Source of the DNA: Citricoccus zhacaiensis
GTDB taxonomy: Bacteria; Actinomycetota; Actinomycetes; Actinomycetales; Micrococcaceae
Assembly (NCBI RefSeq): GCF_014645315.1
Contig: NZ_BMLQ01000005.1
Coordinates: 62,001 to 126,000 of the forward strand
Length of the DNA: 64,000 nucleotides
Direction: 5' to 3'
Positions 16,636 through 60,845 of the stretch are shown here, one piece after another. Below the pieces are notes generated by a model. It saw nothing but the letters and a program-made list of their open reading frames with translations. It was not told the origin of the DNA and made no database searches. Numbering within the stretch: position 1 is the first letter of the stretch; every line of letters begins with the position of its first letter. A program made the translations under genes and the position numbers.

Positions 16636-16657
16636 CGATGGGGACAACTCCCCATCG
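16636..16657. promoter_or_regulatory. Palindrome CGATGGGGA-CAAC-TCCCCATCG upstream of the EspC-like/hydrolase operon
   Basis: A perfect 9-bp dyad with a 4-bp spacer, ending 18 bp before the GTG of the EspC-like gene. Its core ATGGGGA-N4-TCCCCAT is repeated at 60828-60845 in the type VII secretion promoter region, so a common regulator is likely. Confidence 0.75.
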
Positions 16658-16707
16658 CGGTTCACGCCCCGGTTCACGCCACGGTGCCGGGCACCCGGGG
16701 CGGGGCG

Positions 16708-17139
16708 TCAGGACTGGTCGGCGCCGCCGTCGGGCTTGGGGGTGTTGGACCCACCGGACTCGCCGGTGCCGTTGTCCTTCGGCTCCCGCTTCTCCTGGGC
16801 CTTCAGTTCGGCCTCGCGGCGGTCCAGTTCGGCCTGGCGTGCGGCCTGCTTGCGCTGGACGTCGAGCTGGCGCAGGAAGGCCGCATCGTCGTCAGGGGAT
16901 TGCGGGCGCTGGGGACGGGCCGGGCCGCCGGCGGTGCCACCGCCGCTCGAGGACCCACGACGCCGGCCCAGGAAGAGCCACAGCAGCGCACCCACCAGCG
17001 GGACCAGCACGATGATCAGGATCCACACGGCCTTCGGCATGGCCCGCACCTGGTGCCGCGGGGTCATCAGGCACTCGATCAGCGAATAGATGATGAGGCC
17101 GGCGGCGACGATGCCGAGGGGGATGAGGAAGCGGGGCAT
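16708..17139 (-). CDS. Phospholipase D-nuclease N-terminal domain (PLDc_N) membrane protein
   Basis: A 143-residue protein with two membrane helices at residues ~4-24 and ~38-58 (AVWILIIVLVPLVGALLWLFLGR), the PLDc_N pattern. A hydrophilic tail is Gly/Ser-rich, then has a predicted coiled coil (QLDVQRKQAARQAELDRREAELKAQEK) and ends acidic. No phospholipase domain follows. The start ATG 17139 lies 6 nt after TAGACT, so the mRNA is probably leaderless. Function unknown. It is divergent from the DUF4229 gene. Confidence 0.8.
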   Translation of the reverse strand: MPRFLIPLGIVAAGLIIYSLIECLMTPRHQVRAMPKAVWILIIVLVPLVGALLWLFLGRRRGSSSGGGTAGGPARPQRPQSPDDDAAFLRQLDVQRKQAARQAELDRREAELKAQEKREPKDNGTGESGGSNTPKPDGGADQS

Positions 17140-17145
17140 GGCTCC

Positions 17146-17151
17146 AGTCTA
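17146..17151 (-). promoter_or_regulatory. -10 box TAGACT, leaderless promoter of the PLDc_N gene
   Basis: On the minus strand TAGACT is followed by GGAGCC and then ATG 17139, a 6-nt spacing. No separate ribosome site is needed. Confidence 0.55.
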
Positions 17152-17215
17152 CGGACCGGTGCCGGCACAGCTAAACCGGCTGACTGCGCGCCGATCGTGC
17201 GCCTGCTGATCCCGG

Positions 17216-17221
17216 TAGACT
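17216..17221 (+). promoter_or_regulatory. -10 box TAGACT, leaderless promoter of the DUF4229 gene
   Basis: TAGACT ends 6 nt before GTG 17228, which selects this start over the adjacent GTG 17225. Confidence 0.5.
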
Positions 17222-17227
17222 GCCGTG

Positions 17228-17542
17228 GTGCGAGTTTTCAAGTATGCCGTGATCCGCCTGGCCGTCTTCTTCGTGGTCTGGGGCGCCTGCATGCTGCTCG
17301 GACTCGGATGGATCTTCTCCACCATCGCGGCGGCCGTCATCGCGCTGGCCGCGGGCTACCTCTTCTTCAACGACCTGCGCACCGGCGCCGGCAGTGACGT
17401 GGCCAGCGCCTGGGAGGGCCGGGGGAAGCGGGAGCAGTTCAAGTCCGAGCAGGCTGATGCGGACGCCGAGGACTCCTACACCGAGGGCCGGTACTTCGAG
17501 CCGGGTTCCGATGCGGGTCCGTGGGAGCCGAAGGGCAAGTAG
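17228..17542 (+). CDS. DUF4229 family small membrane protein
   Basis: A 104-residue protein with two membrane helices (FKYAVIRLAVFFVVWGACMLLG and WIFSTIAAAVIALAAGYLFF) and a charged tail. The pattern VFKYxxIRLxxF at the start and a small-residue second helix correspond to DUF4229, a family without known function that often lies near menA in Micrococcales, as here (10 bp from the convergent menA). The tail contains EGRGKREQFKSEQADADAED. Confidence 0.8.
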   Translation: MRVFKYAVIRLAVFFVVWGACMLLGLGWIFSTIAAAVIALAAGYLFFNDLRTGAGSDVASAWEGRGKREQFKSEQADADAEDSYTEGRYFEPGSDAGPWEPKGK

Positions 17543-17551
17543 CCTGAGCCG

Positions 17552-18421
17552 CTACAGCACCAACCCGGCCGAGAACAGCACCGCGTAGACCAGGCCGAGG
17601 ATCCCGGTCAGCTTCAGCACCGGGATGAGCTCCCGGCGCTCGGTGGACCGGACCATCGTGAGGGAGGGCTTCACAGCCACCGCGGCGGTCAGCAGCACGA
17701 GCCACAGCCAGGGGTGCTGCCCGGTGAAGAACAGCGGCAGCGCCACGGCCACGGCCAGCATCACCACGTAGGACCAGCGCGCGGGGGCGTCCCCGAGCCG
17801 GGCCGCCAGCGTCATCTTGCCGGTCTCGCGGTCGGTAGGGATGTCCCGGACGTTGTTGGCCATCAGCAGCGCGGTGGAGACCAGCCCGCAGCCCACCGCG
17901 CCCGCCCAGGCGGGCCCGGACAGCGCCAGCGCCTGGGTGTAGGTGGTGCCGAGCACCGCCACCAGCCCGAAGAAGATGAACACGAAGACCTCGCCCAGGC
18001 CCATGTACCCGTACGGCTTCTTGCCGCCCGTGTAGTACCAGGCGGCCGCGATGGCCAGCACCCCGACGGCGATCAGCCACCAGGTGCCGGCCCAGACCAC
18101 CAGGGCCAGGCCGGCGAGGGCGCCGAGGCCGAAGCAGGCGAACGCGGCGGCCTTGACGGTGCGGGCCGGTGCCGCCCCCGAGCCGGTCAGCCGCATCGGT
18201 CCCACGCGCTCGTCGTCGGTGCCGCGGATGCCGTCCGAGTAGTCGTTGGAGTAGTTCACCCCGACCTGCAGGGCCAGGGCGACCAGCAGCGCCAGCAGGG
18301 CCCGGCCCAGGTGGAAGCCGCCCAGGGCGTGGGCGGCGGCGGAGCCGATGAGCACGGGTGCGATCGCCATCGGCAGGGTGCGCAGGCGAGCGCCCTCGAT
18401 CCACTGGGCGGCTGTGGCCAT
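17552..18421 (-). CDS. menA: 1,4-dihydroxy-2-naphthoate polyprenyltransferase
   Basis: A 289-residue UbiA-superfamily membrane enzyme. The first Asp-rich motif is in NYSNDYSDGIRGTDD, and the second in NNVRDIPTDRETGKMTLA. It joins dihydroxynaphthoate with a polyprenyl diphosphate to give demethylmenaquinone. It starts 20 bp after menE stops, with GGAAGGA as ribosome site, so menE-menA are an operon. The polyprenyl donor is probably made by the synthase gene at 50.6 kb. Confidence 0.95.
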   Translation of the reverse strand: MATAAQWIEGARLRTLPMAIAPVLIGSAAAHALGGFHLGRALLALLVALALQVGVNYSNDYSDGIRGTDDERVGPMRLTGSGAAPARTVKAAAFACFGLGALAGLALVVWAGTWWLIAVGVLAIAAAWYYTGGKKPYGYMGLGEVFVFIFFGLVAVLGTTYTQALALSGPAWAGAVGCGLVSTALLMANNVRDIPTDRETGKMTLAARLGDAPARWSYVVMLAVAVALPLFFTGQHPWLWLVLLTAAVAVKPSLTMVRSTERRELIPVLKLTGILGLVYAVLFSAGLVL

Positions 18422-18441
18422 GGGGTGGTCCTTCCGGAACG

Positions 18442-19674
18442 TCAGGGGGTGGGGGTGAAGCGGGTCAGCAGTGCCTGCCGATCGGTCTTGCCATTTGGCA
18501 GCAGCGGCAGCTCATCGAGGACCAGCCAGTCCTTGGGGACCGCGGCCGGTCCCAGCTCGGCCCGGATCGCGTCCCGGGCGGCGGCCTCGCTGAAGGGATG
18601 GCCCACGACGCCGGCCCCCGGCCGGGCAGGTATCGGCGCCAGTGCGACGGCGGCACAGACGCGGTGGCCCCACTCGTCGTCGGGCACCCCGCCGGCGAAG
18701 GCGGCGTGGACCCCGGGGAGGGACTCCAGGACCTGCTGGATCCGGGCGGCGGAGACCTTGACCCCGCCGGTGTTGATCACATCATCCACGCGTCCGGTCA
18801 CGGAGAGCAGCTGCTGCCCGGGACGCCGCGGGTGCGGGGCCACGGTGCCGGTGTCCTCGGTCAGGAAGGACCCGGCGCCGAAGTGGGCGGCCGTGCGCTC
18901 CGGGTCGTCGAGGTAACCGGCGGCGACCATGGGGCCCGCCAGGCGAAGCCGCGGCACGTCCTCCCCGACGAGGTCGGCGGTGACGCCGTCCAGGGGGACG
19001 CCGTCGTACACGCAGCCCCCGCAGGTCTCGGACATGCCGTAGGTCAGGTGGATCCGCAGGTCGGCCTCCGCGGCGATCTCCCGGACCCGGTCCGGCAGGC
19101 GGGCACCCCCGATGAGGATCGCGTCGAAGGTGCGCAGGGCGTCCACGGCGGCCCCGGCGAAGCCCGCGCCCGAAGGGTTCGAGGCTCCGGGGCCGGCATC
19201 GGGCACCAGGAGGCGGGAGAGCATGGTGGGCACGAGGGACACGGCGCGGAAACCAGTGCCGCGCTCCATCCTGTCCACGGCCTCCACGAAGGACTGCGGT
19301 GTGAACGGGCCGGGGGCCATCGGGATTGGGGTGGTGCCGGCCGCGATGGAGCGGGAGAGCACGGCCAGTCCGGCCACGTAGTGCAGGCCCACGGCCAGCA
19401 GCCACTGGCCCTCGCCGCCGATCCGCCTGGCGGTCGCCGCGGCCGAGGCGGCCAGAGCCTCGCGCGTGAGCAGGGTCTGCTTGGGGGTCCCGGTGGAGCC
19501 GGAGGTGCGCACGACGGCGACCGTCCCCTTGGCACCGCCGCGCGACGGATCGGTGGCCTCGGGGCGGGGGAGCACCCGGCCGTCCGCGGTGAACTCCACC
19601 GGCGGCCCAGAGCCGTCCAGGGCGGCGGTCAGCGCACGCTGGGCGCGGTCGAGGTCGGCAGGGGTCACAGGCAC
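18442..19674 (-). CDS. menE: o-Succinylbenzoate-CoA ligase
   Basis: A 410-residue member of the AMP-binding (ANL) family. The P-loop-like VRTSGSTGTPKQTLLT is present, the A5 motif is GMSETCGGCVYDG, and the late GRVDDVINTGGVKVSAARI and PLLPNGKTDR complete the adenylation and C-terminal domains. It activates o-succinylbenzoate with ATP and CoA in menaquinone synthesis. It starts with GTG 19674, 6 nt after TAGACT. Slightly short for the family, but all core motifs are present. Confidence 0.93.
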   Translation of the reverse strand: MPVTPADLDRAQRALTAALDGSGPPVEFTADGRVLPRPEATDPSRGGAKGTVAVVRTSGSTGTPKQTLLTREALAASAAATARRIGGEGQWLLAVGLHYVAGLAVLSRSIAAGTTPIPMAPGPFTPQSFVEAVDRMERGTGFRAVSLVPTMLSRLLVPDAGPGASNPSGAGFAGAAVDALRTFDAILIGGARLPDRVREIAAEADLRIHLTYGMSETCGGCVYDGVPLDGVTADLVGEDVPRLRLAGPMVAAGYLDDPERTAAHFGAGSFLTEDTGTVAPHPRRPGQQLLSVTGRVDDVINTGGVKVSAARIQQVLESLPGVHAAFAGGVPDDEWGHRVCAAVALAPIPARPGAGVVGHPFSEAAARDAIRAELGPAAVPKDWLVLDELPLLPNGKTDRQALLTRFTPTP

Positions 19675-19680
19675 GGATCG

Positions 19681-19686
19681 AGTCTA
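19681..19686 (-). promoter_or_regulatory. -10 box TAGACT, leaderless promoter of menE-menA
   Basis: The minus strand reads TAGACT, then CGATCC, then GTG 19674. Confidence 0.55.
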
Positions 19687-19731
19687 GCCAGTGGCGGCGC
19701 GGTGTAACCCCGAGGGCATGGGGCACCACAC

Positions 19732-19737
19732 TAGGAT
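19732..19737 (+). promoter_or_regulatory. -10 box TAGGAT, leaderless promoter of the GNAT gene
   Basis: TAGGAT ends 6 nt before ATG 19744, in the divergent region with menE. Confidence 0.5.
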
Positions 19738-19743
19738 CGGTCC

Positions 19744-20349
19744 ATGATCACGCCCAGCCGCACCATAGGCCCGGTTGCGATGACCGGCCGACTCGTTGGC
19801 CTTGAACCCCTGACAGTGGACCATGCGCGGGGCTTGCGCACGGCTGTGTCAGACGGGCGGCAATGGGAGCTGTGGTACACGAATGTTCCCACTCCGGAGG
19901 GCATGGCGGCAGAGATCGACCGGAGGCTGGGCTTGCAGGAGACCGGCATGATGGTTCCCTATGCGACGCGGCGGCTGTCCGACGGTGTTCTCATCGGCAT
20001 GACGACGTTCCTGAACGTGGACCACAACATTCCCCGTCTGGAAATCGGAGCCACCTGGAATGCCGCTTCCGTCTCGGGCACGGGGACCAACGCCGAGTCA
20101 AAGCTCTTGATGATGACACAGGCCTTCGACGTGTGGGGAGTGGCCGCCGTCGAGTTCCGGACCGACTGGATGAACAACCCATCCCGCGGCGCCATCGAGC
20201 GGCTGGGCGCCAAGCTCGACGGAGTACTCCGCCAACAGGCCCAGCGCGACGGCTATGTTCGCGACACTGCCGTCTACTCTGTGGTTGCGGCCGAGTGGGC
20301 GGCGGTCAGGAAGGGCCTTGAATTTCGGGTCCGACGGCATGCGGGGTGA
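19744..20349 (+). CDS. GNAT family N-acetyltransferase (RimJ/RimL-like)
   Basis: A 201-residue acetyltransferase. LVGLEPLTVDHARGLRTA is the start of RimJ/RimL-type proteins. The core strand PRLEIGATWNAASVSGTGTNAESKLLMMTQAF is the acetyl-CoA-binding region, with a GTGTNAESK loop in place of the usual R/QGxGxA. FRTDWMNNPSRGAIERLGAKLDG matches the family end. It would transfer acetyl to an amino group of a protein or small molecule; target unknown. It is a lone gene between menE and menB and appears less GC-rich than its neighbours. Confidence 0.85.
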   Translation: MITPSRTIGPVAMTGRLVGLEPLTVDHARGLRTAVSDGRQWELWYTNVPTPEGMAAEIDRRLGLQETGMMVPYATRRLSDGVLIGMTTFLNVDHNIPRLEIGATWNAASVSGTGTNAESKLLMMTQAFDVWGVAAVEFRTDWMNNPSRGAIERLGAKLDGVLRQQAQRDGYVRDTAVYSVVAAEWAAVRKGLEFRVRRHAG

Positions 20350-20413
20350 TGTTGGACGGATCTGACGGATCCTTAAACGCACGTACGGAACGCACTTTGA
20401 GACGCTCGGCCGC

Positions 20414-21406
20414 TCAGAAGTAGTACGGAAAGTTGGACCAGTCCGGGTCCCGCTTCTGCAGGAACGCGTCCCGGCCCTCCACGGCCTCGTCCGTCATGTA
20501 GCCCATGCGGGTGGCCTCGCCGGCGAAGACCTGCTGACCGGCCATGCCGTCGTCCGCCATGTTGAAGGCGAACTTGAGCATCCGGATGGCCTGGGGGGAC
20601 TGGCGGTTGATGTCCGCGGCGTACTCGAGGGCCACCTCCTCGAGGCGCTCGTGGTCCACCGCTTCGTTGACTGCGCCCATCTGCACCATCTGCTCGGCGG
20701 AGTACTCGCGGCCAAGGAAGAAGATGGCCCGGGCATTCTTCTGGCCGGCGTGGCGGGCCAGCAGCTCGGAGCCGTAGCCGGCGTCGAAGGAACCCACCGT
20801 GGCGTCGGTCTGCTTGAACTTCCCGTGCTGCCGTGAGGCGATCGTCAGGTCGGCCACCACGTGCAGGGAGTGCCCGCCGCCGGCCGCCCAGCCGTTGACG
20901 ACGGCGATGACCGGCTTGGGCGTGGTCCGCATGAGCCGCTGGACCTCGAGGATATGCAGGCGGCCGGCGCGGGCCGGGTCCACGGTCTCGGCGGTGTCCC
21001 CCTCGGCGTAGCGGTAGCCGTCCCGGCCGCGGATGCGCTGATCGCCGCCGGAGCAGAACGAATGGCCGCCGTCCTTGGGGGAGGGGCCGTTGCCGGTGAG
21101 CAGGATGCAGCCGACGTCCGTGGTCATGCGGGCGTGGTCCAGCGCCCGGTAGAGCTCGTCCACGGTGCCGGGACGGAACGCGTTGCGGACCTCCGGGCGG
21201 TCGAAGGCGATGCGGACGGTCGGCAGGTCCCGCACGATCGCCCCGGAGGCGTCCCGCTCCACCTGGCGGTGGTAGGTGAGATCCTCGAAGTCGAAGCCGT
21301 TCACCACCCGCCAGTGCTGCGGGTCGAAGAGGTCCGACACCTTCTCCGGCAGAGCAGCTGCGGAGGTGGGATCGGTCGGGGTCTGGGGCGTCTGCTGTCC
21401 GTTCAC
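20414..21406 (-). CDS. menB: 1,4-dihydroxy-2-naphthoyl-CoA synthase
   Basis: A 330-residue crotonase-fold enzyme that cyclises o-succinylbenzoyl-CoA. VRIAFDRPEVRNAFRPGTVDEL, SFCSGGDQRIRG (oxyanion hole), VNGWAAGGGHSLHVVADLTIAS and TDATVGSFDAGYGS are MenB hallmarks, and the C terminus ends in DWSNFPYYF as in typical MenB. GTG 21406 lies 7 nt after a TAGACT box. A leaderless mRNA and a separate promoter from menE are implied. Confidence 0.96.
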   Translation of the reverse strand: MNGQQTPQTPTDPTSAAALPEKVSDLFDPQHWRVVNGFDFEDLTYHRQVERDASGAIVRDLPTVRIAFDRPEVRNAFRPGTVDELYRALDHARMTTDVGCILLTGNGPSPKDGGHSFCSGGDQRIRGRDGYRYAEGDTAETVDPARAGRLHILEVQRLMRTTPKPVIAVVNGWAAGGGHSLHVVADLTIASRQHGKFKQTDATVGSFDAGYGSELLARHAGQKNARAIFFLGREYSAEQMVQMGAVNEAVDHERLEEVALEYAADINRQSPQAIRMLKFAFNMADDGMAGQQVFAGEATRMGYMTDEAVEGRDAFLQKRDPDWSNFPYYF

Positions 21407-21413
21407 CCGGCCG

Positions 21414-21419
21414 AGTCTA
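21414..21419 (-). promoter_or_regulatory. -10 box TAGACT, leaderless promoter of menB
   Basis: The minus strand reads TAGACT, then CGGCCGG, then GTG 21406 (7 nt). Confidence 0.55.
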
Positions 21420-21449
21420 GCCAGACGGAGGCAGCCGGACCTCGCACAT

Positions 21450-21504
21450 GAGTCTGGACCTTTTCACGCGAGACGGGGGTCTCCGCGTGAAAAGGTCCAG
21501 ACTC
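21450..21504. repeat. Long perfect inverted repeat between menB and the MHS transporter gene
   Basis: Two 21-nt arms (21450-21470 and 21484-21504) are exact reverse complements. The 13-nt centre can pair further (AGAC/GTCT), so one hairpin of about 25 bp forms. It lies 20 bp after the transporter stop and 44 bp before the menB start. The arms contain TTTTCACGCG and its complement. There is no U-tract, so it may be a REP-like element or an RNA-processing/termination hairpin. Confidence 0.8.
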
Positions 21505-21524
21505 AACGGATCCCTGACCCAGCG

Positions 21525-23288
21525 TCAGGTAACGGGCGCACCAGCCCGGGCGCCGTCCTCGGGGTCCCCGGCTGTGTCGGCCCCAGCGACTCCGGCACCG
21601 GTTCCGTCCGTCTGCATGGCCACGCCGCCGGCGCCGGTGGCGGCGGCCTCGCGGGCCTCGGCGGCCAGGGTGAGCATCTGCTCCTCGTCCATGGTCCGCT
21701 GCTCGGGCTGGCGCCCCTCCTCGAGGGCCGTCTCGGCCGGGGAACCGGGGACCACGGCGGAACCGATGGAACCGGGGACCTCGGAGCCGCGCAGGGAGGC
21801 ACCGGCGGTCTCCCGCATGAACCAGGCGCAGACCAAGCCCACCGCGCAGGCGGCCATCATGTAGTACGCCGGGAACTGCACATCGCCCGTCACGCCGATG
21901 CCCCACTCGTTCACCAGGGCGGCGGTGCCGCCGAAGAGGGATGTGGCGATGTTGTAGGTGATCGCGAAGCCGGAGAACCGGGCCTGGGTGGGGAACATGG
22001 CCGGGAACGTCGCGGTGATCGTGGACAGCTGCGGGATGTACAGCAGGCCCAGCACAGCGAAGCCGAGGATCGCCAGTCCGAAGTTCATGCCCATCAGCAT
22101 GAACATCGGGATGGCCAGCAGGATCAGCCCGCCCAGGGAGAAGAACCAGGACGGCTTGCGCCCGTGCTGGTCCGAGAGGCCGCCGGCCCACGGCATCAGC
22201 GCCATCATGGCGATCTCGCCGATGAGGATGACCATCAGCCCGGCCGCGGCCGGCAGGCCGATCTGCTGCTCCAGATAGGTCGGCATGTAGGACAACAGCG
22301 TGTAGTTGACCACGTTCACCGAGATCACCAGCCCGGTCATCACCAGCATCGGCTTCCAGTGCTCGCGGAACAGCGCCGGCAACGACGGCGGCGCTGGAGT
22401 CTCGCTCGCCGGGGTGCCGTCCGCGGTGGCTAGGCCGGCCGAGGCGGCCGAAGCGGCCGATGCGGTGGGGGCGTCGGCCGGGGCACCGGCGTCGTGCGCG
22501 GTGTTCTCGGTGTGCCCGGAAGCCGAGCCGTTCATCTCCTCGTAGACCGGGGTGTCATCCAGCTTGGAGCGCAGGTAGAAGCCGATCAGGCCCATGGGGG
22601 CGGCCAGCAGGAAGGGCAGGCGCCAGCCCCAGGAGGACATCTGCTCGGGGGAGAGGAGGAGCTCCAGCAGCAGCATGATCGCCGTGCCCAGGGCGAAGCC
22701 GCCCAGGGTGCCGAACTCCAGGAACGAGCCGAGGAAGCCGCGGCGGCGGTCCGGGGCATACTCGGACATATAGGTGGCCGCACCGCCGTACTCGCCGCCG
22801 GTGGAGAAGCCCTGGACCATGCGCAGCACGATCAGCAGGACCGGGGCCAAGACGCCGACCTGTTCGAACGTCGGCAGCACGCCGATGAGGAACGTGGCAC
22901 CGGACATCATCAGGATGGTCAACGCGAGGATGCCCTTGCGGCCGATCCTGTCGCCCAGCGGACCCCAGACGAGGCCGCCGATCGGGCGGACCAGGAAGGA
23001 GATCGCAAACGTCGCCAGAGTCAGCAGCATGCCGCCCTCGCCCGGGAAGAAGTTCTGCGTGATGTAGGCGGTGGCCACCGCGTAGACGCCGTAGTCGTAC
23101 CACTCCGTCGCGTTGCCGAGGGCCGAGGCGGCCGTGGCCTTGCGGATGGCGGCGGCCGGGATCCTCTTCCGCGGTGGACGGGTCGGCCTGGAGAAGCGGT
23201 TGCGCCGCCGGGGCTGCCCGGACTGCAGGGCCGTCTGGGGTGAGCCAGAGGGGAGAACTACCGAGGGATGGGACTCTGTTTCAGACAC
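21525..23288 (-). CDS. MFS transporter of the metabolite:H+ symporter (MHS/ProP-like) family
   Basis: A 587-residue protein with 12 membrane helices. The N-terminal basic tail (~45 residues) precedes SALGNATEWYDYGVYAVAT, the MHS signature. GDRIGRKGILALTI is the inter-helix 2-3 motif and RMVQGFSTGGEYGGAATYMSE is typical of ProP/KgtP/ShiA carriers. The central loop carries an Ala-rich insert (~60 residues) and the C-terminal tail of ~90 residues is acidic and low in complexity, longer than usual. Substrate could be proline/betaine or a dicarboxylate; not decidable. A CRP-like site lies upstream at 23493. Confidence 0.9.
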   Translation of the reverse strand: MSETESHPSVVLPSGSPQTALQSGQPRRRNRFSRPTRPPRKRIPAAAIRKATAASALGNATEWYDYGVYAVATAYITQNFFPGEGGMLLTLATFAISFLVRPIGGLVWGPLGDRIGRKGILALTILMMSGATFLIGVLPTFEQVGVLAPVLLIVLRMVQGFSTGGEYGGAATYMSEYAPDRRRGFLGSFLEFGTLGGFALGTAIMLLLELLLSPEQMSSWGWRLPFLLAAPMGLIGFYLRSKLDDTPVYEEMNGSASGHTENTAHDAGAPADAPTASAASAASAGLATADGTPASETPAPPSLPALFREHWKPMLVMTGLVISVNVVNYTLLSYMPTYLEQQIGLPAAAGLMVILIGEIAMMALMPWAGGLSDQHGRKPSWFFSLGGLILLAIPMFMLMGMNFGLAILGFAVLGLLYIPQLSTITATFPAMFPTQARFSGFAITYNIATSLFGGTAALVNEWGIGVTGDVQFPAYYMMAACAVGLVCAWFMRETAGASLRGSEVPGSIGSAVVPGSPAETALEEGRQPEQRTMDEEQMLTLAAEAREAAATGAGGVAMQTDGTGAGVAGADTAGDPEDGARAGAPVT

Positions 23289-23492
23289 AGGTGATCTTCC
23301 TGGTGCGGTTCACCCCGCCAGGGGTGTTCCAGGGCCGATCGGGCGTGAGGCCCGGTCTCTCCCGGGGAGGGAGGACCAGGGGCGCCGGAGTCGAGTCCGG
23401 TGAGGACGGCCCCGGAATGCTGACCCGGAAGCCCACCTGGGATTGCAGACAATCGACCGTAGCCGAGTCGGTCGGGGGTAGGTCAAATCTGA

Positions 23493-23506
23493 GTGAGGTG
23501 CATCAC
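23493..23506. promoter_or_regulatory. CRP/GlxR-like site GTGA-GGTGCA-TCAC
   Basis: The half sites GTGA and TCAC with a 6-bp spacer match the core of the CRP/GlxR consensus. On the minus strand TTGACC (23481-23486) and TACGGT (23456-23461) follow as possible -35/-10 of the MHS transporter, although the spacer is 19 bp. It is also 51 bp upstream of the phosphatase gene. Confidence 0.4.
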
Positions 23507-23556
23507 GGCCGGCACCGGGGGCGGCAAAAGTGGCCGAGAGTGGCACAGTGGGATGC

Positions 23557-24291: not shown

Positions 24292-24311
24292 TTCTCCTAC
24301 TTGCCGTCGGA

Positions 24312-24350
24312 CCTACCGGGTATGCATACTGAGTGTGCATACCCGGTAGG
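24312..24350. promoter_or_regulatory. PadR-type operator palindrome
   Basis: Perfect 15-bp arms CCTACCGGGTATGCA / TGCATACCCGGTAGG with a 9-bp centre lie 62 bp before padR. The inner GTATGCA-N9-TGCATAC is the kind of dyad PadR repressors bind, so autoregulation of the padR-ABC-FtsX operon is expected. Confidence 0.8.
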
Positions 24351-24411
24351 CCATTGCGTGTGACGGCTCCGGCGTTCGACCCCCACGAGTTCGTTCAGTC
24401 CAGGAGAATCC

Positions 24412-49263: not shown

Positions 49264-49269
49264 GGCGGG

Positions 49270-50631: not shown

Positions 50632-50637
50632 GGCCCG

Positions 50638-51774: not shown

Positions 51775-51790
51775 CGTAGAGGATGTATAG

Positions 51791-52800: not shown

Positions 52801-52806
52801 GCCCCC

Positions 52807-52812
52807 AGTCTA
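52807..52812 (-). promoter_or_regulatory. -10 box TAGACT, leaderless promoter of SUKH-HIT
   Basis: The minus strand reads TAGACT, then GGGGGC, then ATG 52800 (6 nt), inside the 22-bp gap after the RarD gene. Confidence 0.5.
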
Positions 52813-52822
52813 GGGTCCCCTC

Positions 52823-53764
52823 CTACGGGCCGTGGCGCGGCCGGGGATTCCGCCGGGCCGCCCGCAGCGAGTCCACCATGAGCACCAGCAGGGCACACCA
52901 GATGAGGATGAAACCGGCCCACCGGCCGGTGCTCATGGCCTCCTGGAACAACAGCAGGCCGATGAGGAATTGGATCAGCGGGTTGATGTACTGCAGCAGC
53001 CCGAGCAGGGTCAGGGGCAACCGGCTGGCGCCGGCACCGAAGAGGATGAGGGGGACCGCCGTCACCACCCCGGACAGGACCAGGATCCAGAAGTGGCCGG
53101 CTCCGTGGGAGAACAGGGTCATCTGGTCCGAGGCCGCCAGCCACCACATCCCGGCCAGGCTCACCGGCAACAGCAGGATAGTCTCGGCCCCCAGGGAGGC
53201 AACCGGGCTGACAGCGGTGGACAGCCGGCTCTTGACCACGCCATAGCCGCCGAAGGTCAGGGCGAGCAGGATCGCGAGCCAGGGGAACGTCCCGTGCCCG
53301 ACCACCATGACCGCCACGGCTGTGACGGACAGGCCGACGGCCACCCACTGGGCCCGTCGGAGCCGCTCCCCGAACAGGACGACGCCGGCCAGCACGGAGA
53401 CCAGCGGGTTGATGAAGTACCCCAGGGCCGCCTCGAGGGTCTGGCCGGAGATCACGGCGTACGTGTAGATCGCCCAGTTGCCGGTGATGAGCACGGAGGC
53501 CAGGGCCGTGGCGCCCAGGCGCCGCCCGCTGCCCAGCTGCCGGCCGACGTCGCGCCACCGCCGCAGGACGAAGAGCAGCGCCGCGCAGGTGACGAGCGTG
53601 AAGGCGATCCGGGCGAAGACCACCTCGAGGGCGGAGGCCGGGGCCGTGGCTGCCATATACAGCGGCAGCCCGCCCCAGAACGTGTACGCGCCGGCACCGT
53701 AGGCGAGCCCGGCCGGGGTGACGGGGCGCGGGGCGCGGCCGGCGGTGGGAGCGGACGCGGTCAC
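52823..53764 (-). CDS. rarD: RarD-type DMT/EamA family transporter
   Basis: A 313-residue protein with ten helices in two EamA repeats. GLAYGAGAYTFWGGLPLYMAATAPASALEVVFARIAFTLV and LEAALGYFINPLVSVLAGVVLFGERL are typical RarD segments. PLTLLGLLQYINPLIQFLIGLLLF is the second-repeat motif. RarD was linked to chloramphenicol sensitivity in Pseudomonas; the general substrate is unknown. GTG 53764 overlaps the eccC stop by 4 bp (GTGA), so it belongs to the secretion operon transcript, although no secretion role is known. Confidence 0.88.
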   Translation of the reverse strand: MTASAPTAGRAPRPVTPAGLAYGAGAYTFWGGLPLYMAATAPASALEVVFARIAFTLVTCAALLFVLRRWRDVGRQLGSGRRLGATALASVLITGNWAIYTYAVISGQTLEAALGYFINPLVSVLAGVVLFGERLRRAQWVAVGLSVTAVAVMVVGHGTFPWLAILLALTFGGYGVVKSRLSTAVSPVASLGAETILLLPVSLAGMWWLAASDQMTLFSHGAGHFWILVLSGVVTAVPLILFGAGASRLPLTLLGLLQYINPLIQFLIGLLLFQEAMSTGRWAGFILIWCALLVLMVDSLRAARRNPRPRHGP

Positions 53765-56700
53765 TCCGGCCGGTCGCCGAGCTCGCCGAAGAACGTCTGC
53801 ACCGTCATCACCGGCTTGCCCGTCATCAGCAGCTGGCCGCGGCCGGGGGGCATCTTGCGGGCCTTGAGTCCGTTGATGAGGTTGCCCTCGCGGCGGTCAC
53901 CGGACATGATCAGCGCCGAGGTCCCGTTGTCCCGCAGAGTGGAGAAGAACGTCTCATACATGCCGCGGGAGGCGCCCCGTACGCGGCGGGTCAGGACGAA
54001 GTTCAGCCGCAGCTCAGCGGCCATGGGGATGAACGGGACGAATCCGCCGAGGGGCGACTGGCCGCCGCCCACCGTCAGGACGTCGTAGTCGTCGATCAAG
54101 GCCACGATGCGCGTCTGGCGTTGTACCGTCTTCTGGTCCTCCTTGGGGTCCTGCCGCTTGCGGAGTTCGTTGACCACGGCGCCCACCAGGTTCTTGGCCA
54201 CCTCGGCGTTGGTGGCGTAGCCGCCCAGGTAGTCGTCCGGGACGACGTCCCCCAGTCCGCGGCGCGGGTCGAACACCACGAACATCAGCTCGTCGTCCCG
54301 GTGGTTCGCGGTGAAGCGCTGCACCACCTGGCGCAGCATGTTGGTCTTGCCGGCCTCCTCGTCTCCCATGACGATCAGGTTCCGGTCCGCGCGTTCCAGG
54401 TCCAGCTGCTGGACACCCAGGTCCAGCTCGCGCAGCCCCAGCGGGAACAGGCCCTTCTGGTCCGAGGTGGGGACCGAGGAGGCCTCCACCACGGGCGGCA
54501 GGACGCGGACCTTCATGGCGGCACCGGTGGAGAACCGGCCCACCTGCTCCACGAGGTCCTTCAAGCCCTCCGTCGCCGACTCCTTCTCGGCCTGGCCGTC
54601 GATCCGCGGCAGGGCCAGGTGGCCCTGGAGCTTCAGGGGGGTCAGGCCGCGGCCGGGGGCCTCGGGGTGGACGTTGGCGGCCAGCTTGCGGTCGACCTGC
54701 GAGTCGCCGGGCTCCGCCAGGGCCAGCTCGATGCGGTGCGTGAAGTAGGTCTGGTGAGTGGCCCGGATCTCGTTGTTCCGGTTCACGGAGGAGATGATGT
54801 GGATGCCGTAGCCGGCGCCACGGGTCATGATCGAGACGATCTTGGGCAGCAGGTCGTCGAACTCCTCCTGGAACTGGCCGTGGCCGTCCACCACCAGGAA
54901 GATGTCCGCACTGGGCAGCTCGGGCAGCCGGCCCTCGGCGTGCATCCGGCGCATGGTCTGCAGCGAGTCGATGGCGTGCTTCTCGAAGACGCGTTCGCGG
55001 TGGGAGAGCATTCCCAGGATCTCGTCCACGGTCCGGGAGATGACCTCGGTGTTGGTCCGGATGGCCACGCCGCCCACGTGGGGCAGATCCTGCAACGGCA
55101 ACAGGCCGGAACCGAGCAGGTCGATGCAGTAGATGCCGACCTGCTGGGGCGAGTGGGTCAGCGCCAAGGAGGCCACGATGGTCCGCAGGGCCGTCGATTT
55201 GCCGGACTGGGGGCCGCCGTGGACGATCATGTTGCCCGAACCGGACGTGAAGTCGATCTCCCACAGGCCCTGCCACTGCCGAGCCGGGTCATCCAGCAGG
55301 CCGACCGGCACGGTGAGGTTCCCGCCGGCGGGCAGCCGCAGCCCGCCCTCGGTGTTCTTCGGCTCGCCGACGACCCGGTCCAGGGTGGTCTCCAGCGGCA
55401 GCGGCGGCAGCCAGATCGGCTTCACGGACGGCGGGTAGGTCCGCAGGGTGTCCATCATCGTGGACATCACGGTCGGTCCGGTGGTGCGCCGGGCCGGGCC
55501 GTCCTTCTTCGGGGCCGGAGCCTGATCCTGATCCTGGCCGGACGCCGGCGACTGCTCCTCCAGGAGGAGGGAGTACTCGGGCGCGGTGAGCACCTCGGGG
55601 ATCTCGTCCTGCGGCGTCACCTCGTGCTCCTCGACGACCTCGTCCTCCAGCGGGCCCGAGACGTAGCCGGACTTGAAGCGCGAGTAGACGGTGGTGTCCA
55701 CCTTGAGGTAGCCGTAGCCGGGCAGTGGCGGCAGGTGGAACGCGTCCGGGGTGTCCAGCACAGTGCGGGACTCGGACTCGGAGAGGGTGCGGAGGCCGAT
55801 CCGATAGGACAGGTAGGTCTCCAGGCCGCGGAGCTTGCCGGACTCCACGCGCTGCGAGCTCAGCAGCAGGTGCACGCCGATGGAGCGGCCGATGCGCCCG
55901 ATGGAGAGGAACAGGTCGATGAAGTCCGGGCGGGCGGTGAGCAGCTCGCCGAACTCGTCGATGATGACGACCAGATGCGGCAGGGGCTCGATGTCCCGGC
56001 CCTTGGACCGCTCCTCGTCACGGTGGATCTGGTAGTCGGTGATGTTGGCGATGTTGCCGGCGGCCTTGAGGACCTCCTGCCGGCGCAGGATCTCGCCGTT
56101 CAGCGACGCGTAGACGCGTTCGATCAGGGTCAGGTCGTCGGAGAGGTTCGTGATGATGCCGGTGACGTGCGGAGCGCCCTCGAACGGGGCGAAGGTCGCA
56201 CCGCCCTTGAAGTCCACCAGCACCATGGCCAGGCTGTCCGGGGAGTGGGTGGTCAGCAGGCCGAACACCAGCGACCGCAGCATCTCGGACTTGCCGGAGC
56301 CGGTGGCGCCGACGCAGAGCCCGTGCGGGCCCATCCCGAGCTGGGCGGCCTCCTTGAGGTCCAGCAGCACGGGCTTGCCCTTGTCATCCGGCCCCAGCGG
56401 GACGCGGAGGAAGTCGGCCTGGGAACGCGGCCGCCAATTGCGTTCGACGTCGGCCCGGTCCAGTGCCGGGGAGAGGTGCAGCATCTGCAGGAATGAGGAG
56501 GAGGACGCCGCCTCGGCGCCGGTGTGCTCCAGGGAGTCCAGGGCCAGGCGCAGCGGCGCCAGCTCGCGGACCAGCCCCGAGGCGGTGCTGGTGTCCAGGG
56601 GGTCCAGGACCCCCTCGGTGCGTACCGGGTTCCCCTGGTCCCGGGTGCGGTCCTCCAACAGGAAGCCGGGACGTCCGTCGTTCCGCCGGGAGTCCAGCCC

Positions 56701-57831
56701 GTCGTGCAGCGTGACCCGGTAGGACACCTCGGAGGGCTCGTGGAGCCGGTTCTCGCACAGGTGGATGGCAGTGATCCCGCGGGACTGCAGGCTGAAGTGC
56801 GAATCGCCGAAGGCCAGGTCCTCGGAGGTGTGGCCGTAGCGGTCCACGATCACGATGAGCCGCGAGAGCAGGGCGGGGCCCTTGAGCGTCTCCTCGCCGA
56901 ACTTGGTGTGCTCACCGGCCACCTTGGACCGGTACTGCAGGTCCTCGTTCAGCAGCTCCACCAGGGCCTCGGGGTCCGGGACGATCAGCTTGACCGGGCC
57001 GGTGAAGTGCTTGGCCGCATTGTCATCCAGGTGGGGGAGCAGCTCGAGCCAGTCCCAGTCCGCGCGGGTGGCCCGGGGCGTGATGAGGGCGATCCTGACA
57101 TCCTCGGGGGACTGCAGGGCCGCCGCGCCGGCCATCAGCGAGCGGACCACCTGGAGGGTCAGGTCCCGTGGGCCCACCAGGGAGATGTTGCCCGCCGAGT
57201 CGAGGGGAACGGTCACCGGCATGTCCGGGGCCACCTCGAACCTGCTCTTGAGGGCCTCGGCCTCACGCAGCATGAACTCGTCCTGCAGCGCGGTGGAGGT
57301 CTCCGTGACGGAGATGTCGATCTCCCGGGTGGGACGGCGTCCCGAGCCGAGACGCATTCGCAGGAAGTCCTCGTGGTAGCGCCGCCGCTCCCACACTCTG
57401 GCTGGATCACGGACGATGTCGAACAGGGCCGCCGGCGGTGGGGAGGAGGCCCGGGCCGCCAGCTGCGCCCGCTGCTCGTCATCGCGTAGCTTGACCCGCG
57501 TCCGCTCGAGGTACCGGGCATAGGTGTCCCGCACCGTCTTGCGCAGCCGGCCGGCCTTGCCCCGCTGAGAGAACATCATCACCACGGCGACGATGAGGGA
57601 GAGCATCATCGCGATGGCACCCACGGCCGCGAAGGGGCTCTGGCGGAAGGTCATCATGACCATCATGGACGCGCCTGCCGCGAACATCGGCATGATGCGC
57701 AGGAAGCCCGCGTTGCTCTCGCCCTCGGCCGCCGCCGGGTCGAGTGGCTGGGGCCCCTCGATCCGGAAGGGCCGGTACAGGCGGGCCGGTGCCGAGGTGC
57801 GGGCGGGGCGGTGGATGATCTTCTGCGTCAC
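53761..57831 (-). CDS. eccC: Type VII secretion ATPase EccC (FtsK/SpoIIIE family)
   Basis: A 1356-residue motor with two N-terminal helices (residues ~35-85) and three tandem NTPase domains. The Walker A motifs are GATGSGKS (~507), GGPQSGKS (~871) and GDEEAGKT (~1155). The first has a clear Walker B VVIIDEFGELL; the second has VVDGHGQF and the third LIDDYDVL, both lacking the catalytic Glu after Asp. Full length and single-chain, like Bacillus/Mycobacterium EccC fusions. It recruits Esx substrates and powers export. GTG 57831 overlaps the upstream gene by 4 bp (GTGA). The frame extends to 58116 but only as antisense-like Gly/Arg sequence. Confidence 0.95.
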   Translation of the reverse strand: MTQKIIHRPARTSAPARLYRPFRIEGPQPLDPAAAEGESNAGFLRIMPMFAAGASMMVMMTFRQSPFAAVGAIAMMLSLIVAVVMMFSQRGKAGRLRKTVRDTYARYLERTRVKLRDDEQRAQLAARASSPPPAALFDIVRDPARVWERRRYHEDFLRMRLGSGRRPTREIDISVTETSTALQDEFMLREAEALKSRFEVAPDMPVTVPLDSAGNISLVGPRDLTLQVVRSLMAGAAALQSPEDVRIALITPRATRADWDWLELLPHLDDNAAKHFTGPVKLIVPDPEALVELLNEDLQYRSKVAGEHTKFGEETLKGPALLSRLIVIVDRYGHTSEDLAFGDSHFSLQSRGITAIHLCENRLHEPSEVSYRVTLHDGLDSRRNDGRPGFLLEDRTRDQGNPVRTEGVLDPLDTSTASGLVRELAPLRLALDSLEHTGAEAASSSSFLQMLHLSPALDRADVERNWRPRSQADFLRVPLGPDDKGKPVLLDLKEAAQLGMGPHGLCVGATGSGKSEMLRSLVFGLLTTHSPDSLAMVLVDFKGGATFAPFEGAPHVTGIITNLSDDLTLIERVYASLNGEILRRQEVLKAAGNIANITDYQIHRDEERSKGRDIEPLPHLVVIIDEFGELLTARPDFIDLFLSIGRIGRSIGVHLLLSSQRVESGKLRGLETYLSYRIGLRTLSESESRTVLDTPDAFHLPPLPGYGYLKVDTTVYSRFKSGYVSGPLEDEVVEEHEVTPQDEIPEVLTAPEYSLLLEEQSPASGQDQDQAPAPKKDGPARRTTGPTVMSTMMDTLRTYPPSVKPIWLPPLPLETTLDRVVGEPKNTEGGLRLPAGGNLTVPVGLLDDPARQWQGLWEIDFTSGSGNMIVHGGPQSGKSTALRTIVASLALTHSPQQVGIYCIDLLGSGLLPLQDLPHVGGVAIRTNTEVISRTVDEILGMLSHRERVFEKHAIDSLQTMRRMHAEGRLPELPSADIFLVVDGHGQFQEEFDDLLPKIVSIMTRGAGYGIHIISSVNRNNEIRATHQTYFTHRIELALAEPGDSQVDRKLAANVHPEAPGRGLTPLKLQGHLALPRIDGQAEKESATEGLKDLVEQVGRFSTGAAMKVRVLPPVVEASSVPTSDQKGLFPLGLRELDLGVQQLDLERADRNLIVMGDEEAGKTNMLRQVVQRFTANHRDDELMFVVFDPRRGLGDVVPDDYLGGYATNAEVAKNLVGAVVNELRKRQDPKEDQKTVQRQTRIVALIDDYDVLTVGGGQSPLGGFVPFIPMAAELRLNFVLTRRVRGASRGMYETFFSTLRDNGTSALIMSGDRREGNLINGLKARKMPPGRGQLLMTGKPVMTVQTFFGELGDRPE

Positions 57832-58925
57832 CAGGCCAGTCCCCTCGCCGCCGGCGCCGGGGCACCGGAGGAGTTCGCCGCCGCGAGAGCCTGGGCCGCC
57901 AGTTCCGCGGCGGCCAGCCGGTTCTCCGGCCGGATCAGCGGCAGGGAGATCCCCACCCCGCCGGCGATGTGGCGGTCGTGACGGAGGGCCACGGCGCCCA
58001 CGCCGGTGCGGGTCAGGGCCGCGGCCTGGGCCAGCGGGTCCAGCACCGCGTCCCGGTCGGTGCCCACGACGGCGGCCACCACGGGGATGGCGGAGAGGAA
58101 CGGATCGGTCTGCCAATGGCGCAGGTAGCCGGCGGCCTCGTCCACGGCGGCGGCCGCGGCCGGCACCACGAAGACGGCGGCGTGCGCCCGGGTGAGGACG
58201 GCCGCCGTGTCCGGGTGCTCCGGTCCGGTGGGGCAGTCGATCACGGTGACGGGGAAGTACCGGGACAGCCCGGACAGCAGCGTGGTGGCGGCCGCCTCGC
58301 CCAGGGGCCCGCCGGTGACCCGGGGCCCGGTGTGGTACAGGTCGTTCCGGCCCAGGGACATCCGGGAGGCCACGGCGTCGAACGTGGTGGCGTCCAGCGC
58401 CGCCAGGTCGGCGGCGAGCTGGTCCGCTCCGCGGGCGGGACCGTTGCCGAGGCGCAAGGCCAGGGATCCACAGGCCGGGTCCAGGTCGAGGGCGGCCACG
58501 GGCTCGGGGCGCAGGGCGGCGAAGGTGGAGGCGGTCAGGGCCGTCACGGTGGTCTTGCCCGCACCGCCGCGCAGGGAGACCACGGCCAGGCGGCGCCCCG
58601 TGGTGACGGGGGACTGGACGATCTTCCCCGAGGCCGCCAGCCGGTCACCGCTGCGGTCGTGGCCCCACAGGCCGCCGAGGGCCCGCCAGCCGCGGGTCCA
58701 CAGGGACAAGGCCGGGCGGCGCGAGTAGTCACGCTGCACCCGGGAGGCTACAGACTCGAACCCGGTGGAGGGGTCGTCCTGGGCTCGGTGGACGTCCCGC
58801 CGCAGGTCGGACCGGCTGGACCACTGCACGTCGCCGCCGTCCGTCCGGCCGGAGCCGGAACCGGGGCGGGGCCGGGAGGGGGCGGGGCCGGCGTCGTTCC
58901 AGGGGTCCAGTGGCGCAGAGGACAT
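57828..58925 (-). CDS. MinD/ParA-like ATPase of the type VII secretion locus (EspI-like)
   Basis: A 365-residue protein. A ~110-residue polar, Arg/Asp/Ser-rich N terminus precedes a P-loop domain with SLRGGAGKTTVTALTASTFAAL (deviant Walker A) and the later switch-like VTVIDCPTGPEHPDTAAVL. RHWQTDPFLSAIPVVAAVVG is a MinD-like strand. EspI in mycobacterial ESX-1 has the same layout and tunes secretion with ATP level; here the role is by context. ATG 58925 overlaps eccD stop by 1 bp (TGATG). Found in many actinobacterial type VII loci. Confidence 0.85.
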   Translation of the reverse strand: MSSAPLDPWNDAGPAPSRPRPGSGSGRTDGGDVQWSSRSDLRRDVHRAQDDPSTGFESVASRVQRDYSRRPALSLWTRGWRALGGLWGHDRSGDRLAASGKIVQSPVTTGRRLAVVSLRGGAGKTTVTALTASTFAALRPEPVAALDLDPACGSLALRLGNGPARGADQLAADLAALDATTFDAVASRMSLGRNDLYHTGPRVTGGPLGEAAATTLLSGLSRYFPVTVIDCPTGPEHPDTAAVLTRAHAAVFVVPAAAAAVDEAAGYLRHWQTDPFLSAIPVVAAVVGTDRDAVLDPLAQAAALTRTGVGAVALRHDRHIAGGVGISLPLIRPENRLAAAELAAQALAAANSSGAPAPAARGLAW

Positions 58926-60277
58926 CAGAAGGTCTCCAACAGGGTGGCGTAGATCCCGTAGTAGCCGATGAGCAACGGGATGGGGGCGAGCAGGGCGATG
59001 GCCTCGATGGTGTCCCCGGTCTTGCGCATCCGGGCCTGCGAGTGCTCAGGCAGGTCGACGGACAGGCCGGCCCCGATCACGAGGGCCAGCACCAGCAGCG
59101 CGGCCAGGAAGGCGCTCTCGTAGTCCGGGAGGAAGCCCGTGGCCACCCGGAGCAGGGCGAGGACGCCGAGCCCGGTGGCCAGGTACAGCGGGATGCGCTC
59201 GGCGGCCAGGGGGAAGGAGCGGGCGCGCAGGCCCAGCCCGAGGACCAGGCAGGCGAGCAGCGGCAGGGAGAAGGGGTAGGCCAGGGTGTCCCCGCCCACC
59301 AGCCACAGGGACAGCGCGGCCGAGCCCGCGCACACGATGGCGCTGGAGACGAGACCCCCGTGCGCGGAATCGATGGCGGTCGCCACGTCGCGGCGCAACA
59401 CGGCCGCGCCGTTGGCATGCCGGTCGTCCATCCCGGCCAGGCCGGAGACGCCGAGGGCGATCTGGGGGAGCATCCCCAGCACCAGCAGGGTGACGATGCC
59501 GGCGATGGCGGCCGCCCCGACCAACGGGTCGGCGCTCCGGTCCCCGATGGCCCACACGGAGACCGCCGGGGCCACGGCCCAGACGGCCACCAGCACGCCG
59601 GTCACCGCGGCGGAGATGAACATGGACAGGGGCCGGTTGACGATGAAGCCCAGGACCCCCTGCACGACGGCGGCCAGCCCGGCGAGCGCGATGAAGGACC
59701 ACGGCTCCGGCAGCCCCAGTCCCACCAGCCCGGTGACGGCGAAGAGCGTCCCGGCACCCGCGAGGGTGGCCGCCACCGCCTGTTGGCGCCCGGGGGCGGA
59801 GACCGTCGTGGCCGCCACGAAGGCCACAGCGGCCAGTCCGAGTGCGATCCAGTGCTGCTGCTCCGGCGCGAACGCCTCCAGCAGCCCGGTGATGGCGAAC
59901 CAGGATCCCACGGCGGACAGGAAGCCGCAGATGATGAAGCGGTACACCGGGGACCACCGGCCGGGAACGGCCTCCGTGTGGTCTGACACGGTGTCATTGA
60001 GGTCGTAGACGATCGGGGAGGGCGGTGCCTCGGTACGGGAGACCAGACGCAGCCGCTCGCCGTCGAGCACGCCGGTCTCCCCCAACGTCTGTCCCGCGGG
60101 CAGCTCCCCGCCATCGGGCCGGACCAGCAGCTTGGCCCCCAGGGAGTCGTCCGGCCGGTCGTCCAGCACGTCCAGGATCTGAGGCATCAGGGTTCCGAGC
60201 GGAGTGTCCGAGGGCAGCAGGAGGTCCGCGTTGCGCCGCTGACCGACCAGGGAGACTCGCGTGTAGGGGTTGGGCAC
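58925..60277 (-). CDS. eccD: Type VII secretion membrane protein EccD
   Basis: A 450-residue protein. The N-terminal ~85 residues (VPNPYTRVSLVGQRRNADLLLP, then LVRPDGGELPAGQTLGETGVLDGERLRLV) form the ubiquitin-like YukD domain, and about eleven helices follow from residue ~120 (FIICGFLSAVGSWFAITGLL onward). That matches EccD. It forms the central channel region of the machine. GTG 60277 has GGAGG 8 nt upstream and begins 1 bp after the preceding gene. The frame up to 60385 overlaps the small membrane gene and is rejected. Confidence 0.92.
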   Translation of the reverse strand: MPNPYTRVSLVGQRRNADLLLPSDTPLGTLMPQILDVLDDRPDDSLGAKLLVRPDGGELPAGQTLGETGVLDGERLRLVSRTEAPPSPIVYDLNDTVSDHTEAVPGRWSPVYRFIICGFLSAVGSWFAITGLLEAFAPEQQHWIALGLAAVAFVAATTVSAPGRQQAVAATLAGAGTLFAVTGLVGLGLPEPWSFIALAGLAAVVQGVLGFIVNRPLSMFISAAVTGVLVAVWAVAPAVSVWAIGDRSADPLVGAAAIAGIVTLLVLGMLPQIALGVSGLAGMDDRHANGAAVLRRDVATAIDSAHGGLVSSAIVCAGSAALSLWLVGGDTLAYPFSLPLLACLVLGLGLRARSFPLAAERIPLYLATGLGVLALLRVATGFLPDYESAFLAALLVLALVIGAGLSVDLPEHSQARMRKTGDTIEAIALLAPIPLLIGYYGIYATLLETF

Positions 60278-60278
60278 G

Positions 60279-60704
60279 TCAGGACCTCCAGGGGGTCGGC
60301 GGCAGGGCGTCAGCCTGCGGAGCGGAAGGCTGTGAGACGGGCAGGGACACGAGCAGCGCCGTGGCAGCGGGGGAGACCGGGGCACCTGAGGACTCCGGGT
60401 GCCGGCTGGTGCCCTGGGCCTGTCCGTCCTGCTCCATCTGCTGCCGCTCCAGCTCCTGCTGTTCGCGCTGCTGCTCGCGTTCGTTGCGATCGTTGATGTA
60501 GTTCGTGAGGATGTTGATGACGAAGGAGAGAGCCACGCAGAAGGCGCAGATCAGGGCGGCGATGATCAGTCCGTAGACGAAGGAGGTGGTGCGGTCCTTC
60601 CACCGGCGCTCCGTGGGATTCAGCCCGAACAGGAAGGAGGCGCTGAGCCGATTGCGCCGAACCTCGACCGACTCGATGAGCTGCGAGTCGAAATCCATGG
60701 CCAT
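60279..60704 (-). CDS. Small single-helix membrane protein of the type VII secretion operon; possible EccB-like stub
   Basis: A 141-residue protein. MDFDSQLIESVEVRRNRLSASFLFGLNPTERRWKDRTTSF is a basic N terminus, then one strong helix (VYGLIIAALICAFCVALSFVINIL), then a coiled coil (NDRNEREQQREQQELERQQMEQ) and a Ser/Pro/Ala-rich end. Layout of the start (basic amphipathic segment, helix) recalls the EccB N terminus, but the extracytoplasmic EccB domain is missing. ATG 60704 has AGGAGGGG upstream. First gene of the secretion operon, 1 bp from eccD. Identity is uncertain. Confidence 0.65.
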   Translation of the reverse strand: MAMDFDSQLIESVEVRRNRLSASFLFGLNPTERRWKDRTTSFVYGLIIAALICAFCVALSFVINILTNYINDRNEREQQREQQELERQQMEQDGQAQGTSRHPESSGAPVSPAATALLVSLPVSQPSAPQADALPPTPWRS

Positions 60705-60827
60705 GGGCGGTCCCCTCCTTCCCCCGGTACGCGCCGGGCTCGTCCTGGTGCGGCGCATCCCGGCGCCGTGACCTCCCACATCATTCCAGTGTTTGGACGG
60801 CGGCGGAAACAACGGCACCGGATGCGC

Positions 60828-60845
60828 ATGGGGAGTTCTCCCCAT
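60828..60845. promoter_or_regulatory. Palindrome ATGGGGA-GTTC-TCCCCAT in the type VII secretion divergent region
   Basis: A perfect dyad (8-bp arms ATGGGGAG/CTCCCCAT) between the minus-strand operon and the esx genes. It shares ATGGGGA-N4-TCCCCAT with 16636-16657. Its centre is ~54 bp upstream of the predicted esx transcription start, a place fit for an activator. Confidence 0.75.

Follow-up and report, generated by a model that had tools for sequence, protein, structure and literature searches.

Why should a type VII secretion locus and an unlinked small gene be preceded by the same palindrome? The question is raised by a 64,000-nucleotide stretch of the Citricoccus zhacaiensis genome (positions 62001-126000 of contig C5, in a genome of 3.69 Mb; hereafter the window), where one copy stands before an EspC-like gene and another between divergent ecc and esx genes. 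To our knowledge, type VII secretion outside mycobacteria and Firmicutes has been little studied. Substrate genes may be located at a distance from the machine, which makes type VII cargo difficult to predict. The pattern TGGG[G/T]AG-NN-CTCCCCA is very probably the site of a dimeric activator which co-ordinates unlinked substrate-type genes with the type VII core operon (eccD-eccC) and its divergent esx genes, in Citricoccus and in many other Micrococcales.

The palindrome in the window and in the genome

The two sites of the window, neither of which is assigned a strand, are as follows.

16638..16655: palindromic site 1, ATGGGGACAACTCCCCAT, one mismatch to ATGGGGAGWWCTCCCCAT
60828..60845: palindromic site 2, ATGGGGAGTTCTCCCCAT, between the divergent ecc and esx genes; perfect consensus, conserved in homologous regions

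An earlier note on this DNA reported ATGGGGA-N4-TCCCCAT at both loci, and both copies do carry it without mismatch. They also lie, as it claimed, less than 140 bp from start codons: the distance from the 16-mer to the predicted start is 36 bp for the EspC-like gene, 124 bp on the ecc side and 136 bp on the esx side. The 7+4+7 architecture that it proposed has to be revised to 7+2+7, as the conserved arms extend into the supposed spacer. The copy at 60828 has the consensus centre, GTTC (G-TT-C), and the spacers of the two copies differ because the copy at 16638 has a deviating CAAC. At up to three mismatches the window holds 5 matches against 3.8 expected from shuffled sequence, and only two perfect copies stand out. 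Since the mismatched matches are at the shuffled level, the case rests on data from outside the window. The palindrome itself is confirmed as real and not a product of chance.

The note had also asked whether the motif occurs at random frequency. In the whole genome TGGGGA-N4-TCCCCA is found at 8 sites and its reversed control at none. Matches to ATGGGGAGWWCTCCCCAT number 5 at zero, 4 at one, 0 at two and 4 at three mismatches (reversed control 0), so that nine sites with zero or one mismatch, having seven-base arms and a two-base centre, are cleanly separated from the background. The proposal that a secretion machine and an unlinked substrate share the site is borne out and enlarged: the nine sites front the machine and unlinked substrate-type genes, a set far exceeding two loci. 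Sites at C2:314465, C2:473801, C4:322148, C4:344766 and window position 16638 precede five small EspC-like genes, each with a larger gene behind it. An EspC-like profile search of the genome returns exactly five copies, all five with the site; recovery of these five is not independent, because the profile includes their own rows, but the absence of a sixth, site-less copy at E<=1 is.

The site at C1:478126 precedes the gene of a 2065-amino-acid giant that contains Big_9 and FN3 domains; a MoxR-like gene comes next (by eye). The N-terminal TADV.LNDGGVWV-like stretch of this giant is conserved, and the site is often found in its promoter (loci L028:1812-8009, which is the C1 locus of C. zhacaiensis, L095, L097, L121, L126, L132, L140, L141, L144 and L148). 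The MoxR-like gene follows the giant in genomes G000 and G030, and in several genomes the giant has a helix-turn-helix-plus-cyclase gene on its other flank (by eye). A gene pair follows the site at C4:355644. It has no family match in our scans, and the label EspG-like once given to it was withdrawn on this ground and on that of a poor structure model (pLDDT 41.8). The site at C4:9689 adjoins a lipoprotein-like gene. In the vicinity of this gene the palindrome reaches a length of 40 bp (L011:7678-7717; also L087, L107 and L114). The 40-bp form may double as the terminator of the upstream LysM/resuscitation-factor-like gene, because genome G007 (L114) has long arms made of other bases.

Conservation, promoter spacing and secretion genes

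The core with an A/T centre is present in all eight genomes of the genus, C. zhacaiensis included. In exact form it occurs at 69 sites in 20 of 149 family genomes (reversed control 0) and in 9 of 394 class genomes, 7 of these 9 being among the 40 genomes from the same order. The 18-mer with any centre is found in 58 of 297 order genomes, and its control in one. Such exact patterns miss the one-mismatch form TGGGTAG..CTCCCCA. Orthologous regions were compared directly, the earlier note having asked whether they lack the motif. Among the 30 best EccC matches from the 47 EccC-bearing family genomes, 25 esx/ecc regions keep the site with zero or one mismatch. They belong to genera g1, g17, g18, g20, g29, g7 and g32, including genera that seem motif-free by the exact pattern. 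One mismatch is present in 20 of these 25 sites, as TGGGTAG..CTCCCCA or its reverse complement. G035 has no predicted gene adjoining its site, and the esx and ecc sides were left unassigned there.

A further set of named genomes provides at least 117 loci, most of them from Micrococcales (Microbacterium, Brachybacterium, Isoptericola, Agreia, Plantibacter, Terrabacter, Intrasporangium, Promicromonospora, Arthrobacter and others). Other orders account for a few. In Actinoplanes italicus the site stands before a WXG-type gene, in a Propionibacteriaceae metagenome-assembled genome WXG- and EccC-type genes are beside it (by eye), and four named loci come from outside Actinomycetota. In Isoptericola halotolerans the site and a WXG-type gene occur twice in tandem, 650 bp apart (L363:416-433 and L363:1066-1083).

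Many of the sites stand at a constant distance from a -10-like element. Offsets were counted from the 16-mer, and the control consisted of base shuffles of each 60-base stretch. In a first set of 97 site-gene pairs (82 sites, from C. zhacaiensis, its family and its class), TAnnnT starts 23 or 24 bp after the 16-mer in 38 pairs, against a shuffle mean of 1.3 (maximum 8) and an average of 1.2 at other neighbouring positions. In the first 80 named loci the count is 40 of 86 pairs (shuffle mean 1.0, maximum 6), although some of them come from the same genomes as the family and class set, so that the two sets overlap. After removal of similar sequences the counts are 30/79 in the first set and 36/75 in the named one. 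Another 37 named loci, held out, give 19 of 33 pairs (shuffle mean 0.3, maximum 3). Over the at least 117 named loci (121 sites, 119 pairs) the -10 is at 23/24 in 59 and at 33/34 in 4. The first set has a second peak at 33/34 (9 of 97 pairs, shuffle maximum 7). On the esx side TTGAC is found at offset 10 in all 16 esx/ecc regions of genera g1, g17 and g20. The stretch TGACATGATGG before the ecc operon is common to genera g17, g20 and g7 (L123, L426, L427, L151, L430, L154 and L155) and is perhaps an extended -10.

A spacing held in this way argues for an activator touching polymerase; neither a repressor nor a hairpin is expected to hold it. Relative to putative start sites the palindrome centre would lie near -43.5, or one helical turn further at -53.5. 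We infer that a single regulator binds there and activates. A dimeric activator would sit immediately upstream of the -35 region, with some promoters placing it a turn further up, and would recruit the housekeeping polymerase; one such activator would turn on the secretion machine at the same time as its cargo.

The association with type VII secretion is visible at two levels. Among the 149 family genomes, 18 of the 20 with the exact core have an EccC like that of the window (E<=1e-60), one of the 18 (G059) with only a partial 35% match, as do 29 of the 129 without the core (Fisher p=8e-9). At the level of single genes, the 86 proteins downstream of the first 80 named loci include 27 WXG100 and 10 EspC matches at E<=0.05, some of which are below curated cut-offs. 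Profiles whose seeds come from the wider group to which the window belongs match 33 of these 86 site-adjacent proteins and 10 of 467 non-adjacent proteins from the same loci; a few named loci are from genomes that are also among the sources of the seeds. LpqN-type lipoprotein genes recur near the sites (4 of the 117 neighbours scanned in the named loci).

Some other neighbours may be mentioned here. Two of the 86 downstream proteins belong to the AIM24 family (Pfam), in Plantibacter and Pseudoclavibacter (L333 and L347), the latter gene with a -10 at 23. Brachybacterium loci L343, L344 and L175 have a common small gene behind the site, with a -10 at 23, which is a candidate new target. In L171 and in L352, the latter from Microbacterium, the site precedes a FlgN-like gene (by eye), a hint that flagellar and secretion genes might share a regulator.

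Several observations weigh against a single type VII activator. The 33/34 peak is not evident in the named set (3/86; shuffle mean 1.0, maximum 5), so that the 33/34 class, to which site 2 belongs (TTGACC at offset 10, weak -10 at 34), rests on the window's family. In both window promoters the -10 element is weak and differs from TAnnnT. A number of sites adjoin genes that have no obvious connection to secretion (e.g. L135-L138), and 18 of the 121 named sites have no gene start in range. Among the 30 esx/ecc regions, five lack a good site: one from g7 (at a contig end), two of the five from g32, and one genome each from g4 and g14. The exact 16-mer with an A/T centre is missing from 129 of the 149 family genomes, 29 of them EccC-bearing; this absence is partly accounted for by the one-mismatch form or another centre (G037, G089 and G124). 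Two Streptomyces sites (L330 and L378) adjoin TetR-type genes and are probably operators of a different protein. Finally, no classical regulator recurs among the 25 commonest Pfam families in 117 of the 214 neighbours (sigma-70 regions are present in 3 and HTH_3 in 2).

The genes and putative promoter elements around the two window sites are listed below.

14271..16253, minus strand: 660-amino-acid protein, alpha/beta hydrolase (PF06259), presumed partner substrate; N-terminal WXG100 match very weak (E=0.3)
16264..16602, minus strand: EspC-like small helical gene, 112 amino acids, GTG start; DUF6507 E=0.015, below cut-off
16610..16615, minus strand: putative weak -10-like GAGGCT, offset 23 from site 1, toward the EspC-like gene; from sequence and offset class
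53761..57831, minus strand: eccC, FtsK-type ATPase; TIGR03924 706 bits and TIGR03925 640 bits, above cut-offs
57828..58925, minus strand: MinD/ParA-like protein of the ecc operon; matches below cut-offs
58925..60277, minus strand: eccD; TIGR03920 114 bits, cut-off 95
60279..60704, minus strand: first ecc operon gene, 141 amino acids, probably membrane-bound; no family above its cut-off
60855..60860, plus strand: -35-like TTGACC, offset 10 from site 2, esx side; from sequence, compared across homologous regions
60879..60884, plus strand: putative weak -10-like AACTAT, offset 34 from site 2, 18 bp from the -35
60981..61346, plus strand: esx gene 1, WXG100-like, 121 amino acids; PF06013 E=4.9e-4, below cut-off
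61467..61766, plus strand: esx gene 2, ESAT-6-like, 99 amino acids; NF035935 E=6e-16, 58 bits against a cut-off of 100

On the profile matches of its EccC and EccD, the region 53761-61766 is a type VII secretion (ESX) locus. The product of 16264-16602 remains below the curated family score (DUF6507 16 bits against a cut-off of 25), and the NCBIfam scan gave no match. Its structure model is a helical hairpin (helices 7-40 and 45-102, pLDDT 72.7, pTM 0.41) with no PDB match at E<=0.001; PDB sequence and fold searches returned nothing specific. YxxxD/E is the type VII export motif. This protein has FIESD, and in an alignment read by eye [YF]xxxD is present in 15 of 19 rows and YxxxD in 9 of 19. 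The EspC-like message (16602-16615) may be leaderless, because the putative -10 nearly abuts the GTG start and leaves almost no leader.

Competing explanations

In a first alternative the same genes would be repressed, the palindrome being the repressor's operator. Polymerase could be blocked by a site that touches the -35 region, and the two Streptomyces copies adjoin TetR-type genes. However, repressors tolerate varied positions, while in many genera TAnnnT, where found, lies nearly always at 23/24 bp. The 23/24 class also seems to have poor bases where a -35 is expected (by eye, unscored). Repression is thus unlikely.

It is similarly improbable that unrelated regulators converged on like sites in separate lineages, with no single protein for the regulon. 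The 16-bp core, the geometry and the gene classes are alike in Arthrobacter-type, Microbacterium-type, Brachybacterium, Terrabacter/Intrasporangium and Promicromonospora loci. The resemblance of the two Streptomyces sites to TetR operators would fit convergence, as would the failure to find a LuxR group confined to genomes with the motif.

An RNA or DNA hairpin, acting as terminator or attenuator, is very improbable. The few copies with longer arms would suit it, for example the 40-bp palindrome behind the LysM/resuscitation-factor-like gene, whose outer arms are different in a relative, but most copies barely exceed 18 bp (by eye) and the sites, placed upstream of starts, keep a fixed distance to the -10, which an RNA function downstream of a gene does not produce. 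Chance or a spread repeat element, suggested by a short motif with few copies per genome, can be practically dismissed, since the reversed control occurs in 0/149 and 1/297 genomes and the flanks vary between copies that have gene class and promoter spacing in common.

The regulator, related operators and significance

The earlier note had seen no obvious regulator gene in the window, and none was identified there or outside it. From the form of the site, with GGGGA-type half-sites around a centre of two bases, we infer that a dimer reads it. Operators of LuxR/NarL-type activators are palindromes of 16-20 bp with a two-base centre near -42. The MalT and RamA boxes are built in this way, and so is the MacR box, whose string was not found in open-access full text. 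The present palindrome agrees with them in length, centre and, counted from putative start sites, position. A LuxR/NarL-type helix-turn-helix protein is thus a tentative candidate for the reader, and other families are possible.

The genome contains 16 LuxR-type matches, none linked to a site. Beside the scanned sites no LuxR gene was found except one LAL near the Ig/FN3 gene in G030; four further LuxR matches in the scan are LuxR loci of C. zhacaiensis that had been included as such. When the LuxR sets of four motif-bearing genomes were compared by eye with that of C. zhacaiensis, only widespread DesR- and NarL-type response regulators seemed common to all five. A LAL-LuxR tandem (C1:542-548 kb) was rejected on the distribution of its upstream member (E<=1e-15), which does not follow the motif: this member is present in 12 of 20 core genomes against 50 of 129 without the core, and missing from core genomes G007, G026, G030, G032, G053, G059, G076 and G111. 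CRP sites are TGTGA-N6-TCACA; they resemble the present site in their 16-bp length and take nearly the same position in class II promoters, but differ in the half-site. A CRP/FNR regulator would fit the spacing, but was discarded as the one evident CRP of the genome has a recognition helix that is presumably the usual one, and the 8 remaining PF13545 matches resemble GntR, IclR or DtxR (by eye). Two more candidates were set aside: a NarL-type regulator gene with a 3-mismatch site 148 bp upstream, off the promoter spacing, and an XRE gene adjoining the site in two relatives (L091 and L104), whose side has no -10 at 23/24 or 33/34.

Two families of known operators are close in design. PimM-type sites serve antibiotic cluster activators and are not known to control type VII genes, and the DosR/DevR box is read by a NarL-type activator. 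The operators of the PimM-type PAS-LuxR proteins of Streptomyces, given as CTVGGGAWWTCCCBAG in PMC9774167 and other papers, are like the present site 16-bp palindromes of 7+2+7 with GGGA/TCCC half-sites and an A/T centre, but have different outer bases. The DosR/DevR box of Mycobacterium, TTSGGGACTWWAGTCCCSAA (PMC2275270), is also a palindrome with GGG/CCC half-sites and a WW centre; its inner bases differ and it belongs to a hypoxia regulon, not to type VII secretion. Type VII genes have transcriptional regulators, known or proposed, in other lineages as well: WhiB6 for ESX-1 (PMC6343904), Fur in Corynebacterium glutamicum (PMC12607788) and the LytR-like TsiN, predicted for T7SSi (PMC11217815); in the available parts of these sources none is tied to this palindrome. 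No description of the site or of a type VII regulator in Micrococcales was found in open-access full text, which is weak evidence as subscription papers are mostly outside it. The site is apparently an undescribed type VII secretion regulatory element.

A regulon of this kind is familiar; what is new here is its reach and the use of the site as a marker of secretion cargo. A motif common to machine and cargo yields a candidate substrate list across many genera, and the timing of the switching on of the type VII system becomes a promoter question. On balance we favour, with modest confidence, the wider view that type VII secretion has one conserved activator as its master switch throughout Micrococcales and in some neighbouring Actinomycetes, the 16-bp site being a genome-wide tag for its substrates and accessory genes. 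If this is true, EspC-like pairs, Ig/FN3 surface giants with MoxR clusters, lipoproteins and possibly a flagellar operon would be readable directly from the site.

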